A DNA stretch of 64,000 bases, taken from assembly GCF_016097415.1 (NCBI RefSeq), contig NZ_JAEHGE010000001.1, forward strand, positions 2,963,157 to 3,027,156, read 5' to 3'. A program made the translations under genes and the position numbers. Each line of letters begins with the position of its first letter. Position 1 is the stretch's first letter. This document shows positions 33,061 to 57,013 of the stretch, piece after piece. The notes under the pieces were generated by a model. That model saw only the letters and a program-made list of their open reading frames with translations. It ran no database searches and had not been told where the DNA came from. This DNA is from a sulfur-oxidizing endosymbiont of Gigantopelta aegis (GTDB taxonomy: Bacteria; Pseudomonadota; Gammaproteobacteria; GRL18).

Positions 33061-33351
33061 TGATGTGTCAACACTTTTCCGGACAGTTTTCTAAATATTT
33101 TTTTGGCTGTTTCAAGTGATTTTTGTCATTTTGTATTTCCTATCATTTTAGTTTCTCATGTTAACTTTAAACAGATGAAGAGAAAGGGCTTTGCCCTCTG
33201 GAACGATAGAGCCGTTCCATTCACCCAAGGTATTTTCACAACGGTAATGATCCTGTTACAATATCTTCACGGCACAGGCTGAGGAGCCGATGGCCGTCAA
33301 CGGTAATGGGCGGCATTTATGTCGCCTTTTACCCCTCTTCAATCAATCGAT

Positions 33352-33930
<579 letters not shown>

Positions 33931-34212
33931 TTAAAACAAACCGGCTTTTTTCATTAATCGACCAATTCTCCGGCGGCTTATATGAACGCCTTTTTCAGCC
34001 AGTTTTCTTTTTAAGACGACGGGTTCCATAAGTCTTGCGACTGTCTTCAAACAGTTTTTTAGCTGCTCAGTAAGCGCTTCATTTTCTTTCTCTCTATCCG
34101 TTTTAGGAGAGCTAACCCAATCATAATAGCAACTACGGGAAACATCCATAAAACGGCACAGAATCGTTACCGGGTAATCTTTAGCCTGATCAGTTATCCA
34201 TGCGTACTTCAC
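33931..34212 (-). pseudogene. IS3 transposase orfB N-terminal part (copy B)
   Basis: Starts KYAWITDQAKDYPVTILCRF with a GTG or in-frame start, and contains the HTH_21-like region, but after EQLKN it reads in the wrong frame across the A6C site and returns only through a further lesion. It ends at a TAA created by a 3-base deletion relative to copies C-E. Confidence 0.7.
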
Positions 34213-34291
34213 AAAGTTTCCCTTGCAAAGTACGCTGTGGCCTTTTTAATAAATCACGCTCCTGAATCACTTTTGCCAATTCTTTTTTCAG

Positions 34292-34860
34292 ACGTTTTAC
34301 TTCATCATAAATGTGTTCATCACTTCTATTGGCTACCGTCTTCACCGGTTTGGAATATTTACTGATCCAGGTATGTAGAGTATTTACATTAACACCTAGC
34401 TCCCTGGCAGTCTGAGAAACGGATTGATCCGTCTCATTAGCTAATTTGACAGCTGATTCTTTAAATTCTGATGTATAGCTTTTATTCGGTTTTTTGTTTG
34501 ATCATTCATTTTAGGTCACACTTTTTATCTTTTAGTTATTTTAAGTTGTGTGTCCGGTTAAGTATAGCCACATTAACGTTTTACTTCATCATAAATGTGT
34601 TCATCACTTCTATTGGCTACCGTCTTCACCGGTTTGGAATATTTACTGATCCAGGTATGTAGAGTATTTACATTAACACCTAGCTCCCTGGCAGTCTGAG
34701 AAACGGGTTGATCCGTCTCATTAGCTAATTTGACAGCTGATTCTTTAAATTCTGATGTATAGCTTTTATTCGGTTTTTTTGTTTGATCATTCATTTTAGG
34801 TCACACTTTTTATCTTTTAGTTATTTTAAGTTGTGTGTCCGGTTAAGTATAGCCACATTA
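34292..34860 (-). repeat. tandem duplication of the IS left end within copy B
   Basis: Segments 34292-34575 (284 bp) and 34576-34860 (285 bp) are nearly identical. They differ by one T in a poly-T run and one A/G change (GGATTGATCC against GGGTTGATCC). Each carries the orfA start and the left inverted repeat, so two left ends lie in a row. The distal orfA (34573-34794) has the intact poly-A run; the proximal one is frameshifted. Confidence 0.9.
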
Positions 34861-46026: not shown

Positions 46027-48564
46027 ATGAGCACAAATACAGCAGCAAGTAAAAAAACACCTAAAAACACGCCGATGATCGAGCAATATTTAAAGATAAA
46101 GGCAGAATTTCCCAATATGCTGCTATTTTATCGGATGGGTGATTTTTACGAACTTTTTTTTGATGATGCCAAACGTGCCTCACAGCTTTTGGACTTATCC
46201 TTAACTGCTCGTGGACGCTCTGGCGGCGAACCCATTCCCATGGCAGGCCTACCCTACCATGCAGTTGATAATTATTTGATTAAATTGGTTAAACTCAATC
46301 AATCTGTCGCTATTTGTGAGCAAATTGGCGATCCGGCCACATCAAAAGGGCCGGTAGAAAGAAAGGTAGTACGCATAATAACCCCCGGCACCATTACCGA
46401 AGACAACTTACTGGAAGATAGAAAAGACAACTTGCTAGCCGCTATTTTTATTGCTTCAGAAGCAAGCTTAAATGCAGTTTCAACAGAGGCTTCAGAGCAC
46501 TTACACACACATCCAGCAATCATTGAACGCGCCTTTGGACTGGCGGTATTAGATCTGACCAGTGGTCACTTTACTATTTCTGAACTGGATTCATTAGAAG
46601 CACTACAATCCGAATTAGAACGCCATCGCCCCTCCGAATTATTATTGACCGAAAACAACCCTATCAAAGCCCTTTTACAACAGCAATTGGGCAAGCAAAC
46701 AGCTTTTGCAGAACAGCCCGCTTGGTGGTTTGAGGAACAATCTGCGCGTCAATGTCTCAATCAGCAATTTGCCACACAAGATTTAAAAGGCTTTGGTTGT
46801 GACGACTATGACACCGCCCTATGCGCTGCAGGTTGCTTATTACAATATGTGCAAAATACGCAACGCACCGCCCTGCCCCATATCCATAAACTCAAAGTAG
46901 AACAACACGAAACAGCCGTCATTTTGGATACCGTCAGTCGCCGTAATCTAGAAATTGACATGGCATTAAATGGCAATAAAGAACATAGTTTGATGTCGGT
47001 TATGGATAACACCTCGACGACAATGGGCAGTCGTTTACTCGGGCGTTGGCTAAACCGCCCATTGCGAGATCATACACAGCTCAAGCAACGCTATCAAAGC
47101 ATTGCCCAACTACAAACCGATAGCCAGTTTGAGCTCATACAGCCACACCTCAAACAAATTGGCGACATTGAGCGTGTCCTCACACGCATTGCGTTAAGAA
47201 CAGCACGCCCTAGAGATTTTGAGCGTTTAAGGAATTCATTGGCCGTCTTGCCCTTATTGCAAAGTGAATTAGTCAATCTTAACGAGCCATTATTGCAACA
47301 ATTATCTCAGCTCATTGCAGTCTTTCCAGAACAACATGACTTACTCAAACGAGCCATAATCGACAACCCTCCCGTACTGATTCGGGACGGTGGAGTCATT
47401 GCCCCGGGTTATAATGCTGAATTGGATGAGCTGCGTAATATTCAAAAAAATGCCAATCAATTTTTAATCGATCTTGAAAGCCGTGAAAAAGAGCGTAGCG
47501 GTATCCCCACCTTAAAAGTGAATTATAATCGTGTTCATGGCTATTTTATCGAAGTCAGTCGCGCCCAATCTGCCAACGTACCCGATAATTATCAACGCAA
47601 ACAAACCTTAAAAACCAATGAGCGTTATATTACCCCTGAACTCAAAGCCTTTGAAGATAAAGTACTAAGCGCCAATGAAAAAGCCTTAAGCAAAGAAAAA
47701 GCACTCTATGAAGCATTATTCGACACTCTAGCCCCCCATTTAAGAGCCTTACAAATGAGTGCGCAAGCGATCTGTGAACTGGATGTTTTAAGCAATTTTG
47801 CTGAACGTGCTATCAGCCTGCAATGGTGCCAGCCTCAACTAAACTCTGAACCCTGCTTATCCATTCAGCAAGGCCGTCATCCCGTGGTGGAAAAAATTCA
47901 GGACAGCCCTTTTGTTGCCAATGATATGTTGCTAGATGATTCACGTCGTATGTTATTGATCACCGGTCCCAATATGGGTGGTAAATCAACCTATATGCGT
48001 CAAGCTGCCCTACTCACTCTCATGGCACATATTGGCAGTTATGTACCCGCTAAATCTGCAAGTTTTGGTCCCGTAGATCGCATTTTTACCCGTATAGGTG
48101 CTTCAGATGATCTGGCTGGTGGACGTTCTACTTTTATGGTTGAAATGACCGAGACAGCCAATATCTTACATAATGCCACCAAGCAAAGTCTGGTGCTCAT
48201 GGATGAAATTGGTCGTGGCACCAGTACCTATGACGGCCTCTCCCTCGCTTATGCATCAGCCCATTATTTAGCTAAGACTTGCCAGGCTTTTACCTTATTC
48301 GCCACACACTATTTTGAACTAACACAATTACCGGAAAACTTTGCGCAAATAGTTAATGTACACATGGATGCCATCGAGCATGGTGAAAAAATCGTATTTT
48401 TACATAAAGTGCAAGAAGGCAGTGCCTCACAAAGCTATGGCATCCAGGTCGCCGCACTTGCCGGAGTGCCTCAGACTGTCATTAGTATGGCCAAGGCCAA
48501 GCTAATAAGTCTAGAAAAAAATGCACAACAGAACAATCCAACACAAGAAAAAGATATACCCTCT

Positions 48565-48567
<3 letters not shown>
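46027..48567 (+). CDS. mutS: DNA mismatch repair protein MutS, C-terminally truncated by IS copy D
   Basis: 846 aa containing the mismatch-reading domain I ([12 protein letters not shown] with the Phe-x-Glu probe), connector, lever, clamp, the ATPase core [13 protein letters not shown] (Walker A), [12 protein letters not shown] (Walker B) and [12 protein letters not shown]. It recognises mismatches for MutL/MutH-type repair. The stop TGA at 48565-48567 is the first triplet of IS copy D. The true C-terminal region (10 codons at 50080-50109 and 46 codons at 53542-53682) is displaced. In E. coli the equivalent region mediates tetramerisation, and truncated MutS keeps partial function. Confidence 0.93.
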
Positions 48568-50076
<1,509 letters not shown>

Positions 50077-50109
50077 TCTAAAACAATCAACAACTTAAGC
50101 GAAATAACG
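50077..50109 (+). pseudogene. isolated mutS fragment between IS copy D and the IS66-family element
   Basis: After the duplicated TCT the bases read AAA ACA ATC AAC AAC TTA AGC GAA ATA ACG, i.e. KTINNLSEIT. This is in frame with the mutS body (codon TCT at 48562) on one side and with the remnant at 53542 on the other. The last eight bases are the target site of the IS66-family element. Confidence 0.85.
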
Positions 50110-50344
50110 GTAACTTCTCAATAAGTCTGTGCAAAACTTGAAATAAAAACAAAAAAGTCTTGACAGCATTTTAGAGGACAAAATTGCATTTTCACTGCCC
50201 CATGTAATTTATCCCTATAAATGATCCTGTCGATCTGTCTCAGATCGAAATAGAATATTTTTGAATATTATCTTAACTGAGAGGGAGTTTGATCAACACA
50301 GGGCAAACTAAAGAGCCTTAAAAAGCCATGATACAATTGTTTTA

Positions 50345-51992
50345 TTGAAAACAACCTGTATTGATTATAGTGAAAAATTACCTCCAATTCCAGAGATACC
50401 TGAAGAAGAAAAGACACCGGTAGTCCGATTACTCCTTGCTTTCATGGAGCAACAACAGGAAATCATTCAAAACCAACAGGTTGAAATCGATGCCCTTAAA
50501 ACAGAAGTTGCTAAGCTTAAAAGCTACCTCCAAAGCCTAAAATAAGAGCCAGTAAATTGCCAAAGGATGATGACAATGATAATCCGACAGGTCATTCAGG
50601 AAGCAAGAAAAACAACTCAGGAAATGGGACTAGTAAAAGTCGTAAACGAAAGAAGAAATTGGCTATTCATAAAACCACCGTTATCAAACCAGATAACCTG
50701 CCAGAACATTCACGTTTTTAGGGTATCAGGATTATTTTGTTCAGGAGTTGCTGATTAAGCCTTTCAATACTCGTTATCGATTGGCTCGCTATAAAACACC
50801 CGATGGTGATACCTGTATAGGAAAATTGAGCTTTGATACACATATAGGACATTTTGGCCATACATTACAGAGTTATATCGTTTATCAATATTATCACCAG
50901 AGAGTGACTCAGCCATTGATAATACAACAATTAACAGAATTAGGTTTTGATATTTCAACGGGTCAGATCAATGAGATTTTAATCCATGACAAAGACCATT
51001 TTCATACTGAAAAAATACATTGCTAACTGCCGGTATCAACAATAGTACTTATATCCATGTTGATGATACGGGTAGTCGTCATGATGGAAAGAATGGTTAT
51101 TGTACTCACGTTGGCAATGAAACCTTTGCCTGGTTTTCAAGTACTCGATATAAGAGCCGGATTAATTTTCTACAATTGTTACGAGGTGCTGCTGTTGATT
51201 ATACGCTCAACGATGCAGCACTTGATTATATGAGAGCAGAAAAATTACCTCACAAGCCATTGAGCGTTATTGAACAAAGTCATCAGACTTGCTTTGATAA
51301 TGAAGAAGCCTGGAAATACTATCTGCAGAACAATAGTATCATAACACAACGGCATGTTCGCATTGCCACAGAAGGCGCTTTACTGGGGGCATTAATTAAC
51401 AGTGGCTTTCCAAGTGATTTGGTGATTGTGAGTGATGATGCAGGACAATTTGATATTTTGTTGCACGCATTATGTTGGATACATGCAGACAGAGTGTTTC
51501 AGCGGATACTACCACTCAATGAGCGACATGATAAAGAACTGAACTGGGTACATACTCAGATTTGGGAACTATTTTATGATCTCAAACAATATAAACTTGA
51601 GCCAGATGATCCGTTGAAGTCAGCGATTGCTGAACATTTTGATGAATTGTGCCGGACTAAAACAAGCTTTGAAGCTTTGAAACGTTGAATCAGGCACTGA
51701 AACGATTGGCAAGAAATAAAACAGAATTACTGCTGGTATTGGAACGGCCTGATATTCCTCTTCATAATAATTTGAGTGAAAATGATATTCGAGAATATGT
51801 TATTAAGCGTAAAATTAGTGGTAGTACACGCTCAAAGGATGGGCAACTTTGCAGAATACCTTTGTCAGTTTAAAGAAAACTTGTTTGAAACAAGGAATTT
51901 CATTCTGGGATTTTATTAATGACCGGATCAGCAAGAGAAATTTGATCCCATATCTGCCTGAGTTGCTGAAAGGTAAAGTTTGTGCTGTTTAA
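50345..51992 (+). pseudogene. IS66-family transposase (five single-base frameshifts)
   Basis: A TTG or nearby start gives LLLAFMEQQQEIIQNQQVEI (typical leucine-zipper-like N-terminus). After frame corrections it runs KLPKDDDNDNPTG, IKPDNLPEHSRF, YQDYFVQELLIKPFNTRYRLARYKTPDG, then YIHVDDTGSRHDG (D), VSDDAGQFDIL (D), NNLSENDIREYV (E) and LKKTCLKQGISFWDFINDRI. Breaks fall at an A4 run (about 50537), T5 (50715), A6 (51007), TT (51677) and AA (51854). Every one is repaired by adding one base to the run. Confidence 0.88.
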
Positions 51993-52064
51993 ATGCACTA
52001 ATGTGGCTATACTTAACCGGACACACAACTTAAAATAACTAAAAGATAAAAAGTGTGACCTAAA

Positions 52065-52307
52065 ATGAATGATCAAACAAAAAAACCGAATAAAAGCTAT
52101 ACATCAGAATTTAAAGAATCAGCTGTCAAATTAGCTAATGAGACGGATCAACCTGTTTCTCAGACTGCCAGGGAGCTAGGTGTTAATGTAAATACTCTAC
52201 ATACCTGGATCAGTAAATATTCCAAACCGGTGAAGACGGTAGCCAATAGAAGTGATGAACACATTTATGATGAAGTAAAACGTCTGAAAAAGAATTGGCA
52301 AAAGTGA
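52065..52307 (+). CDS. IS3 transposase orfA (copy E, truncated)
   Basis: 80 aa: a helix-turn-helix domain (SEFKESAVKLANETDQPVSQTARELGVNVNTLHTWI) followed by the start of the leucine-zipper-like helix (EHIYDEVKRLKK). An A6-to-A5 loss turns ELAKVIQERDLL into NWQK and a stop. It is the DNA-binding subunit of the transposase. Confidence 0.7.
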   Translation: MNDQTKKPNKSYTSEFKESAVKLANETDQPVSQTARELGVNVNTLHTWISKYSKPVKTVANRSDEHIYDEVKRLKKNWQK

Positions 52308-52577
52308 TTCAGGAGCGTGATTTATTAAAAAGGCCACAGCGTACTTTGCAAGGGAAACTTTGTGAAGTACGCATGGATAACTGATCAGGCTAAAGATTAC
52401 CCGGTAACGATTCTGTGCCGTTTTATGGATGTTTCCGTAGTTGCTATTATGATTGGGTTAGCTCTCCTAAAACGGATAGAGAGAAAGAAAATGAAGCGCT
52501 TACTGAGCAGCTAAAAAACTGTTTGAAGACAGTCGCAAGACTTATGGAACCCGTCGTCTTAAAAGAAAACTGGCTGA

Positions 52578-53222
<645 letters not shown>

Positions 53223-53541
53223 ATCGATTGATTGAAGAGGGTAAAAGGCGACATAAATGCCGCCCATTACCGTTGACGGCCATCGGCTCCTCAGCCTGTG
53301 CCGTGAAGATATTGTAACAGGATCATTACCGTTGTGAAAATACCTTGGGTGAATGGAACGGCTCTATCGTTCCAGAGGGCAAAGCCCTTTCTCTTCATCT
53401 GTTTAAAGTTAACATGAGAAACTAAAATGATAGGAAATACAAAATGACAAAAATCACTTGAAACAGCCAAAAAATATTTAGAAAACTGTCCGGAAAAGTG
53501 TTGACACATCACACAGACTTATTGAGAAGTTACAAATAACG

Positions 53542-53682
53542 CATGAAATAGTCATAGCAGTTGAAAAAATTAATCCTGATGAGCTTTCTCCTAAAGCAGC
53601 ACTTGATCTCATTTATGCCTTAAAGAAAAGTTATAAATATCGTCTGACAATCAAATATTTTTATATTATCATTGAAAAATAA
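53542..53682 (+). pseudogene. displaced 3' end of mutS
   Basis: 46 codons, reading HEIVIAVEKINPDELSPKAA then LDLIYALKKSYKYRLTIK and a TAA at 53680-53682. This matches the MutS C-terminal helix-turn-helix pattern (E. coli: [20 protein letters not shown]). Joined to KTINNLSEIT and the 846-aa body it completes a roughly 902-aa MutS. It has no start codon or promoter of its own. Confidence 0.9.
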
Positions 53683-53748: not shown

Positions 53749-54574
53749 ATGAAAATAATGAAAAATAAACTGAAACTCCCATTAGTACTCCACACTATTT
53801 TTTTCATCCTAATTTTTTCTTCTTTATCGTTCTCGGCATTTGCAAAGGATAAAGCACTCACATTCGGCGTACTACCTTACGTCACGTCTAGTAAATTAAT
53901 AAAACATCAGGGAAAACTAATCCTCTATTTAGAGCAACAAATAGGCTCTAAAATATCTATCGTGACGGCTCCCAACTTTAAATCATTTATCCAACGAAGC
54001 AATAAGAATACATATGATCTCATACTGACAGCACCTCATCATGGTCGTTATTTAGAGGTTCAAGGTTTATACCAGCCTATAGCGATGACACAAACAAGAA
54101 TTCAAGGCTTATATATTGTTCTTAAAGACTCACCCTATCAGAGTTTGGATGATATTAAGGAGCAAAAGTAGCCATCATGCCTCCCATTACTATGTTGTCT
54201 CAAGTCGTTTATGAACAATTAACTCAGCATGGCATTAAACGCTCAGACTTAGAATTCATTCCAACCAAAACCTATAATAATGCTATCTACTCCGTCATTA
54301 ATCATGATAGTGATGTATCAGTCACTGGAATTAAGATATATCAACGACTTAAAGCAAGCGATAAAGCAAAGTTAAGAATTTTAGATGAAACTAAAAAAAT
54401 ACCTGGGTTTTTCTTAATGGTTTCTAAAAATGTTGAGCCATCTAAAATCAAAAAATACAAGAATCCATCATGCATTTTGAAAACACAAAATATATATTTA
54501 AAGGCTTTGAACCTGTTCACAAACAGATCCGTCAGGAGCTGAATGAATACACCCACGTTTTCAAACAGTTTTAA
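53749..54574 (+). pseudogene. PhnD-like periplasmic binding protein, two single-base frameshifts
   Basis: Starts with a signal peptide (TIFFILIFSSLSFSAFAKD), followed by LTFGVLPYVTSSKLIKHQGK and YDLILTAPHHGRYLEVQG, typical of phosphonate/phosphite-binding PhnD-family proteins. The frame breaks at an A4 run (54164-54167; adding one A joins DIKEQK to VAIMPPITMLSQVVYEQL). It breaks again at an A6 run (54450-54455; adding one A joins EPSKIKK to IQESIMHFENTKYIF). The repaired protein is about 274 aa and ends YTHVFKQF 9 bp before the GGDEF-EAL gene, so it probably was that protein's ligand sensor. Confidence 0.8.
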
Positions 54575-54583
54575 TCCATTAAT

Positions 54584-57013
54584 ATGCGTCATTCACTTCG
54601 AACCAAACTTATTTCTACCAGTATTATCATTGAGGTAGTCATGCTGACTATCTTATTGGGCAATAGTTTTCGTTTAAGCAACAATCTCATCGAAGAGCAG
54701 ACTGAACTGCGTATTCAATCCATTAATCCCCTACTCAATGCTTCATTAAGTGGTGCACTTTTTCAGCGTGACTATGAAGAGATCAATAATATTATTGAGC
54801 ACCTTAAAGGTGATGAAATAGAAAGTTTTGAATACATTATTGTGCTTGACAGCCATAACAAGATTTATGCTCAAACGGATGAATTTAGTATCGACAAGTT
54901 GCCAACATTAGATGAAAATTTTAACAATGCCATGAACCAGGGTATTTTTAATGGCGCATACCCTTTGGACATCTCTGGACAGAAAGTCGGTGAAGTCCGA
55001 TATGGATTGTCCATTGCCTCTTTTGTTGCTGGTAAGGAAAAAATATTACAACAAGGTTTTTTGATTGCTAATATTGGCGTCATATTAACGGCCTTGTTGT
55101 TAGCCCTCAGTATTTATTATTATACTCGAAATTTAGGCGTGCTCATCAAGAGCACGGAGTCTATTCGACAGGGTAATTATGATATCAATATCAGAATAAA
55201 AACCAAGGATGAAATTGGTCTGCTTGCCAATAAGTTTAATTTAATGGCTCAGGCCATTCATTCAAGAATCGATGCGCTCAACAACTCCAAACATGATCTA
55301 GCATTGATTCTTAACGACTTAAGCAAAGAAAAAGAGTTAGCTCAGGTCACACTCGAATCCATTGCTGATGCCGTTATTACTACCGATGCCAAGGGTTTAA
55401 TTGAATATATGAACCCCAATGCAGAGATGCTGCTGGGCTGGAATCGGCATGAATCAAGTGGCCTGCTTATAGACGATATTTTCAAAATCTATAACGAGAT
55501 AACCGGCGCCCCTCTGGAAAACCCCGTCACACAATGCCTGCAAACACAAAAAACCATTGCCACGATCAGCAACACCTTATTAATCAGCCAACAGGGCAAA
55601 CAATATTTAATTGAAGAGTCTGCCGCCCCCATGATTGATGAACAGGAAAATATCATTGGTGTGGTGCTGACATTCAGGGATGTCAGCAGCTCTAGAAAAA
55701 TGGCGGATGAAATCAGATGGCGAGCCAGCCATGACTCACTGACAGGCTTATACAATCGGCAAGAGTTTGAAAATGAATTACACCTGTCGATACTCAGTGC
55801 TAAAGAAATAGGGCTGACACATTGCTTGCTGTACATGGATCTGGCTCAATTTAAAGTCGTGAATGATACCTGCGGGCATATCGCAGGTGATGAATTATTG
55901 CGCCAGTTATCTGAGCAGTTTAAGAATCTGTGCCGTGAGAGTGATTCTCTAGCACGATTAGGCGGTGATGAGTTTGGTTTGTTAATGAGAAACTGCCCAC
56001 TTCCTCAGGCCATGAGCCGGGCTAAAAGTTTTCTGGAATTACTGGAAGATTATCGTTTTAGCTGGGACAATAATGCTTTCACTTTGGGCATGAGCATCGG
56101 TTTGGTGCAAATTGATCATTCGTTAAATAATATCGCAGAAGTCCTAAGTCTTGCTGATATGGCTTGTTATGCGGCCAAGGATGATGGTAGAAACCGCATT
56201 CACATCTATCAATCAAATGATGATGAATTAATCAAACGTCAGGGTGAAGTACGCTGGGTCAGTAAAATAAAAGATGCCCTGGAGAATAATTATTTTTGTC
56301 TCTATGCACAAACCATCAGTCCCATACAAACATCAGCTAACGAACAAAATGACTTTATCAAGCATTTTGAAATACTCATACGGCTCAAAGACAAAGAGGG
56401 GAAGATTATATCCCCCATTGCCTTTTTACCTGCCGCAGAATGCTATAATCTCATGCCTCAGGTTGATCGTTGGGTTGTGAAAACGGCAATTAATTATTTG
56501 TCTGATAATAAAATTGATGATTGTATCTTATCACTCAATCTTTCCGGTCAAACGTTAGGCGATGATACCTTTCTTGATTTTATCATTGATTTATTAAACA
56601 GCAGTCATGTGTCTAATGGGTTGATTTGCTTTGAAATAACAGAAACGGCGGCTATTTCAAATTTCAATAAGGCCTTGAAGTTTATTTCTGAACTTAAAAA
56701 AATGGGTTGCTCATTTTCTCTGGATGACTTTGGCAGTGGCTTGTCTTCGTTTAGTTATCTGAAAAACTTTCCCGTTGATTATTTAAAAATTGATGGTTGC
56801 TTTGTGAAGAATATTGTCGATGATCGAATTGATGAGGCGATGGTGACGGCGATTAATACTATCGGTCATGAAATGAATATCAAAACCATTGCAGAGTTTG
56901 TTGAGAATGATGACATATTAAAAAAATTAGCCAGCATTAAGGTTGATTATGCGCAGGGCTATGGTATTGCTAAACCCATTCCTATTGAGGAAGCGGTTAT
57001 TTGTAGACATTAG
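54584..57013 (+). CDS. membrane GGDEF-EAL protein with HAMP and PAS domains
   Basis: 809 aa: two TMs (about 9-27 and 157-176) enclosing a periplasmic region of about 130 residues, HAMP (about 177-232), PAS (about 255-375, ADAVITTDAKGLIEYMNPNAE), GGDEF (about 385-545, with RLGGDEFGLLM, an intact active site) and EAL (about 560-805). The EAL core reads FEILIRL (E-x-L-x-R kept), EITETAA, SLDDFGSGLSSFSYL, DYLKIDG. It can make and/or break c-di-GMP. The PhnD-like gene ends 9 bp upstream, implying a shared operon and possible ligand-bound partner sensing. Confidence 0.92.
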   Translation: MRHSLRTKLISTSIIIEVVMLTILLGNSFRLSNNLIEEQTELRIQSINPLLNASLSGALFQRDYEEINNIIEHLKGDEIESFEYIIVLDSHNKIYAQTDEFSIDKLPTLDENFNNAMNQGIFNGAYPLDISGQKVGEVRYGLSIASFVAGKEKILQQGFLIANIGVILTALLLALSIYYYTRNLGVLIKSTESIRQGNYDINIRIKTKDEIGLLANKFNLMAQAIHSRIDALNNSKHDLALILNDLSKEKELAQVTLESIADAVITTDAKGLIEYMNPNAEMLLGWNRHESSGLLIDDIFKIYNEITGAPLENPVTQCLQTQKTIATISNTLLISQQGKQYLIEESAAPMIDEQENIIGVVLTFRDVSSSRKMADEIRWRASHDSLTGLYNRQEFENELHLSILSAKEIGLTHCLLYMDLAQFKVVNDTCGHIAGDELLRQLSEQFKNLCRESDSLARLGGDEFGLLMRNCPLPQAMSRAKSFLELLEDYRFSWDNNAFTLGMSIGLVQIDHSLNNIAEVLSLADMACYAAKDDGRNRIHIYQSNDDELIKRQGEVRWVSKIKDALENNYFCLYAQTISPIQTSANEQNDFIKHFEILIRLKDKEGKIISPIAFLPAAECYNLMPQVDRWVVKTAINYLSDNKIDDCILSLNLSGQTLGDDTFLDFIIDLLNSSHVSNGLICFEITETAAISNFNKALKFISELKKMGCSFSLDDFGSGLSSFSYLKNFPVDYLKIDGCFVKNIVDDRIDEAMVTAINTIGHEMNIKTIAEFVENDDILKKLASIKVDYAQGYGIAKPIPIEEAVICRH

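Follow-up and report, generated by a model that had tools for sequence, protein, structure and literature searches.

Conserved pairing of an exported PhnD-fold binding protein with an adjoining GGDEF-EAL receptor, a probable c-di-GMP sensing unit, in an endosymbiont of Gigantopelta aegis

The arrangement of an exported binding protein (SBP) of PhnD fold directly before a receptor with periplasmic sensor, HAMP, PAS, GGDEF and EAL is conserved, and its two members are jointly inherited. As the pairing recurs in many bacteria, SBP and receptor are very probably one sensor. In the window, i.e., the whole stretch of 64,000 nucleotides analysed, the two genes probably form one sensing unit, an SBP-gated c-di-GMP receptor. 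The original prediction had read them as a two-component ligand-sensing unit for phosphonate/phosphite or a similar anion; the pair is indeed conserved and jointly inherited, and the phosphonate/phosphite part was not upheld. The features of the locus, with the evidence for each, are:

53749..54574, + strand, gene of the exported PhnD-fold (PF12974) SBP, in three frames (Pfam, two pieces; tblastn)
54584..57013, + strand, 809-aa membrane receptor with GGDEF and EAL (open frame, Pfam)
54584..55105, + strand, sensory module of the receptor: TM1, periplasmic part and TM2 (TMs by inspection; alignment A8; class search; Pfam matches of relatives)
55127..55261, + strand, HAMP of the receptor, residues 182-226 (Pfam)
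55346..55684, + strand, PAS of the receptor, residues 255-367 (Pfam)
55724..56197, + strand, GGDEF of the receptor, residues 381-538 (Pfam; GGDEF motif and preceding RxxD by inspection)
56264..56977, + strand, EAL of the receptor, residues 561-798 (Pfam; EAL-type catalytic residues by inspection)

The SBP gene starts with a signal-peptide-like sequence (by inspection) and has three pieces. The first (53749-54171, 140 aa) and the second (54177-54542, 121 aa) matched PF12974 with E 5e-16 and 59.2 bits and with E 1e-10 and 41.8 bits, respectively, the curated cut-off being 27; the third lies in a different frame and ends with the stop TAA at 54572-54574. The breaks are located near 54160-54180 and 54450-54480, and the intact SBP of a congener aligned to the window in tblastn as three collinear pieces in three frames. 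The receptor starts with ATG at 54584, 9 bp after the SBP stop. Its 809-aa frame is intact, in the order TM, periplasmic part, TM, HAMP, PAS, GGDEF, EAL. A PhnD-like exported protein 9 bp before a membrane c-di-GMP protein, as originally described, was thus confirmed by Pfam, tblastn and the open frame. The locus has what defines SBP-gated GGDEF-EAL receptors, namely an exported SBP and an adjoining receptor with periplasmic part, GGDEF and EAL, export and TMs being judged by inspection. The genome of the endosymbiont (G000, 4.9 Mb), in which the window is C1:2963157-3027156, has 22 EAL matches and 15 matches to PF12974, the latter including pieces of broken genes; only the EAL match of the window has PF12974 just upstream, as judged by eye. 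No Pfam match of the receptor to CHASE8 (PF17152) was obtained at E 0.01, and the sensory module had no significant hit among the sequences of solved structures. Mean pLDDT was 36 for the AlphaFold model of the sensory module and 45 for that of the intact congener SBP, too poor for either to be used.

The same pair is present in the congener (G013, contig JAPVVU010000164 of a gammaproteobacterial MAG), where an intact 283-aa SBP is encoded, followed after 9 bp by a receptor of the same type with 931 aa. This contig was the sole return of a scan of named genome contigs. The two receptors are 67% identical over the first 174 residues, and the SBP pieces of the window are about 50% identical to the congener SBP. 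In the 24 genomes of the bacterial family, the sensory module gave four matches (E 1e-10), one in the window, one in G013 and two in G016, and all four are downstream of an SBP gene; at a further G016 locus (L073), the protein encoded after an SBP is kinase-like and carries a related module.

PF12974 had 149 hits in the 24 family genomes. The 62 in open frames of at least 500 aa, probably fused sensors, are outside the count; 82 standalone or partial hits were mapped, and five shorter ones (four hits and the second piece of the window) were not. Two mapped hits had no clear ORF, which gave 80 tabulated genes, and 63 were left after removal of five at contig ends, five with the next gene more than 100 bp away and seven with a next gene on the opposite strand. 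In these 63, which include some fragments or cut genes, the next gene on the same strand within 100 bp carried HATPase_c in 27, GGDEF in 12 (eight of these also with EAL) and ABC_tran in six, according to Pfam; it was set by hand for L078 and for the window. In pairwise searches, the GGDEF-linked and kinase-linked SBPs of the family were disjoint sets, and the six ABC-linked ones resembled one orthologous set.

Directly upstream of the congener pair are the genes of another SBP and of a GGDEF protein that matches CHASE5 weakly (L029, 4454-6668). A similar SBP is found in the endosymbiont genome beside a shortened GGDEF gene (L032, 7259-8567).

Beyond the family, alignment A8, whose nine sensory-module rows were all taken from beside SBPs, had matches in 73 of 369 class genomes sampled (E 1e-8). 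Of the 30 best class loci, window included, 25 have an SBP immediately upstream (24 found by script, and L146 with an inner start); when the window and L144, which is already in A8, are left out, the count is 23 of 28. No SBP stands beside the module in L148, L149, L153 and L159, and L157 is cut by a contig end. The domains of the 30 class receptors were HAMP in 28, GGDEF in 15, EAL in 14, HATPase_c in 12 and CHASE8 in six (Pfam, E 0.001), all of these counts being lower bounds because receptors are cut at locus ends. Among ten receptors scanned singly, four exceeded the CHASE8 cut-off, including those of L148 and L153, which have no SBP, and six (L146, L150, L158, L161, L167, and L169) have both an SBP and the HAMP-PAS-GGDEF-EAL order of the window. 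In the phylum sample, the module was found in 20 of 398 genomes (E 1e-12); an SBP is adjacent in 14 of 24 further phylum loci, and none lies within the stretch examined in the other ten. The pair, for which a search in other genomes had been proposed, recurs in the congener and in the family, class and phylum samples, and chance neighbourhood was rejected on this recurrence.

Distances between SBPs and distances between sensory modules correlated with r 0.885 in a set of 33 pairs (nine of the family and 24 of the class search), a value reached in 0 of 2000 shuffles and uncorrected for species relatedness. This correlation shows joint inheritance of SBP and receptor, and not contact between them. 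It bears on another reading, in which the receptor senses alone and the adjoining SBP has a separate role, the two being neighbours for some other reason. Receptors of the same type without a neighbouring SBP, in 4 of 30 class and 10 of 24 phylum loci, speak for a receptor that senses alone, but the pairing is retained with kinase as well as with GGDEF-EAL outputs and the two genes are jointly inherited, so that we consider this reading improbable and one sensing unit of SBP and receptor the preferred one.

Upstream of the receptors of L148 (440-910), L153 (946-1398) and L146 (3013-3507), similar exported-looking proteins of about 150 aa are encoded, possibly another partner.

YfiR is a periplasmic protein that acts on the CHASE8-type diguanylate cyclase YfiN, and the window resembles this system in having a periplasmic protein with a membrane c-di-GMP enzyme. 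YfiR is not PhnD-like and YfiN has no active EAL domain, whereas the SBP of the window is PhnD-like and its receptor has EAL. NspS of the NspS-MbaA system binds polyamines and belongs to another SBP family, in contrast to the PF12974 protein of the window. In the excerpted texts of the respective papers, the periplasmic binding protein of NspS-MbaA from Vibrio cholerae acts on a membrane GGDEF-EAL receptor (PMC8967002), and a homologue of the system is described from Sinorhizobium (PMC9993111). As in NspS-MbaA, the SBP and the GGDEF-EAL receptor of the window come from two separate genes, and the output would be bifunctional, as judged for the window from sequence motifs. Arsenic oxyanions are sensed in AioX-AioS, ArxX and ArrX by a PhnD-fold SBP encoded with the sensor (PMC5908839, in excerpt); in the window, too, a PhnD-fold SBP gene adjoins the sensor gene, but the output is GGDEF-EAL and not a histidine kinase as in AioX-AioS. 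A PhnD-like domain senses tetrathionate in TtrS and thiosulfate in ThsS (PMC5408782 and PMC11293645, both in excerpt), and there it is fused to the kinase, while the window encodes it as a protein of its own, upstream of a GGDEF-EAL receptor. PhnD-fold SBPs sensing arsenic and fused PhnD-like sensors for sulfur oxyanions are already known, and so are SBP-gated receptors that include c-di-GMP enzymes (PMC9602780, in excerpt). No paper on a PhnD-fold SBP with a GGDEF-EAL receptor was found among those listed in a literature search that missed most subscription journals.

By analogy with NspS-MbaA and AioX-AioS, the SBP, either ligand-loaded or empty, would dock on the periplasmic part of the receptor. 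The HAMP and PAS domains would then relay the signal and shift the balance between synthesis and breakdown of c-di-GMP, as in NspS-MbaA. As motifs are present in both catalytic domains (by inspection), either activity may dominate; the roles of the GGDEF, RxxD and EAL motifs of the receptor are presumed here.

The phosphonate question was addressed by the ligand pocket and by the neighbouring genes. The solved structures nearest to the SBP are PtxB, PhnD and ArrX. At the pocket places Tyr, Tyr, Ser, Ser and His, the window has F, L, T, L and Y and the congener F, Y, T, L and H, as aligned via PhnD (3p7i); we assumed part of the place-to-place mapping of the PhnD ligand residues onto the two SBPs. 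The residues that hold the anion in AioX include Tyr88, Tyr131, Ser161, Ser163 and His192, and the pocket of PhnD is like that of AioX except for a cysteine (PMC5908839, in excerpt). The full residue set of AioX and ArrX is absent from the window SBP, where the Tyr, Ser, Ser and His of AioX are mostly lost, and the congener SBP (L029) retains one tyrosine and the histidine, with threonine at one serine place. At the place of the serine motif, the window has PPITMLSQ and the congener PPITLLTQ, while the ABC-linked copies of the family have STSG in 6 of 6. Serine at both places occurs in 0 of 33 receptor-linked SBPs (L160 has one), and instead of DPxSTSG these show motifs such as TPPxxAxxT or FPAPAAFAAS. 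A general loss of the serine motif in all sensory PhnD-fold SBPs was also considered and found wrong, since the SBPs of L093 and L096, encoded before other GGDEF-EAL proteins, retain STSG; the loss therefore belongs to this receptor type. No ABC genes are beside the window SBP, as the next gene is that of the receptor and a mutS remnant and an insertion cluster are upstream. The window SBP has the Pfam family and fold class of PhnD, PtxB and HtxB, which serve ABC transporters (PMC5700983, in excerpt), and differs from them in having no following ABC genes and no serine motif.

A role of the SBP in the transport of phosphonate, phosphite or some other phosphorus anion, with the receptor reporting that anion, would agree with the name of the Pfam family, with the nearest structures and with the Tyr, the His and the one Thr for Ser retained in L029. 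Against it are the absence of an ABC gene downstream, the separate STSG set formed by the ABC-linked SBPs of the family (6/6), the 33 receptor-linked SBPs of which none has both serines, and the replacement in the window of the two tyrosines and the histidine as well; we consider it very unlikely. Phosphonate sensing was rejected as the favoured reading on the loss of the serine motif, and phosphonate or phosphite as the originally proposed ligand was not borne out, the known oxyanion-holding residues being mostly replaced. The SBP of the preferred sensing unit would be a member of a receptor-linked subfamily that lacks the serine oxyanion motif, and for this reason it probably does not bind phosphonate, phosphite or an arsenic oxyanion in the known manner. 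We infer that its ligand would differ from the known anions. Whether the window SBP belongs to a widespread undescribed subfamily of PhnD-fold SBPs that has departed from transporting oxyanions, acts with CHASE8-like receptors whose kinase and c-di-GMP outputs are interchangeable, and senses a new class of ligands is for us an evenly balanced question.

Such SBPs are annotated as parts of phosphonate transporters, yet at least 39 of the 63 family copies precede a kinase or GGDEF protein. In tblastn against plasmids, the L029 SBP returned 20 records and the distant SBP of L150 nothing. In the three of the 20 records that were examined (Vibrio coralliilyticus, Azospirillum, and Salinivibrio), the SBP is annotated as part of a phosphate/phosphite/phosphonate transporter, and the gene that follows it is labelled 'ATP-binding protein' or 'response regulator'. 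If the proposed role is true, a ligand could be assigned to many orphan c-di-GMP enzymes and kinases through screens with a small soluble partner.

As assembled, the SBP gene of the window reads as a pseudogene. Two single-base frameshifts in A-runs had been claimed; two frame breaks are present in the given sequence, and they may be mutations or assembly errors. A dead SBP would leave the receptor an orphan, as some relatives seem to be. We give an even chance to the possibility that both frameshifts arose in assembly and that the organism itself has an unbroken SBP. In the stretches of the endosymbiont genome examined, one insertion sequence is present in thirteen near-full copies, which differ mostly through the loss of single bases. 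Relative to an intact copy, twelve copies have 49 deletions and 1 insertion of one base, 8 substitutions, and one deletion each of 2 and of 3 bases; 39 of the 51 deletions are in A-runs of four or more, a pattern that speaks for assembly error. The losses nevertheless cluster at few sites, with A-runs of equal length elsewhere untouched, and repeats are hard to polish and may misrepresent single-copy DNA; furthermore, the four tRNA-synthetase genes found are all unbroken. Sixteen single-copy ORFs in the A-run comparison were chosen for being intact, and they are uninformative on the error rate.

That the frameshifts are real, e.g., from weakened mismatch repair after loss of the mutS tail, has in our view close to an even chance. 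The mutS frame (46027-48567) stops at the edge of an insertion-sequence cluster of about 4.9 kb (about 48565-53512), which lies inside mutS and has the same terminal sequence inverted at both ends. The tail is found at 53512-53682, just upstream of the SBP gene, with 46-74% identity to MutS ends of relatives (23 to 36 residues). A mutator is possible because the C-terminal tail was lost to this cluster: the mutS beside the pair is without it, the genome has no second MutS_V match, and strains with weakened mismatch repair lose bases in A-runs. Breaks also occur in further SBP genes of this genome, in one case through a transposase-like gene (L036). On the other hand, MutS retains its conserved regions intact, and its C-terminal tail may be dispensable.

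In the insertion-sequence copies at 51981-53300, 48777-50076 and 33273-34575 and in others in L030-L040, losses were seen at few A-runs and at one C-run.

Several other PF12974 loci were noticed. The SBP gene split by a transposase-like gene in the endosymbiont genome (L036, 13358-17085, G000:C3) is followed by a histidine kinase, and intact pairs similar to it are found in L075 (G019) and L077 (G021). Tandem pairs of PF12974 proteins, each of about 250 aa, without signal peptide by inspection and perhaps cytosolic, are encoded in the endosymbiont (L036, 8819-10331) and in G013 (L127, 3490-5022). A frame of 744 aa that includes a PAS-like region also matches PF12974, and a regulator-like gene follows (L034, 5773-10730, G000:C1). 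The gene divergent from this frame is presumably soxB, and the locus recalls the sulfur sensors TtrS and ThsS.
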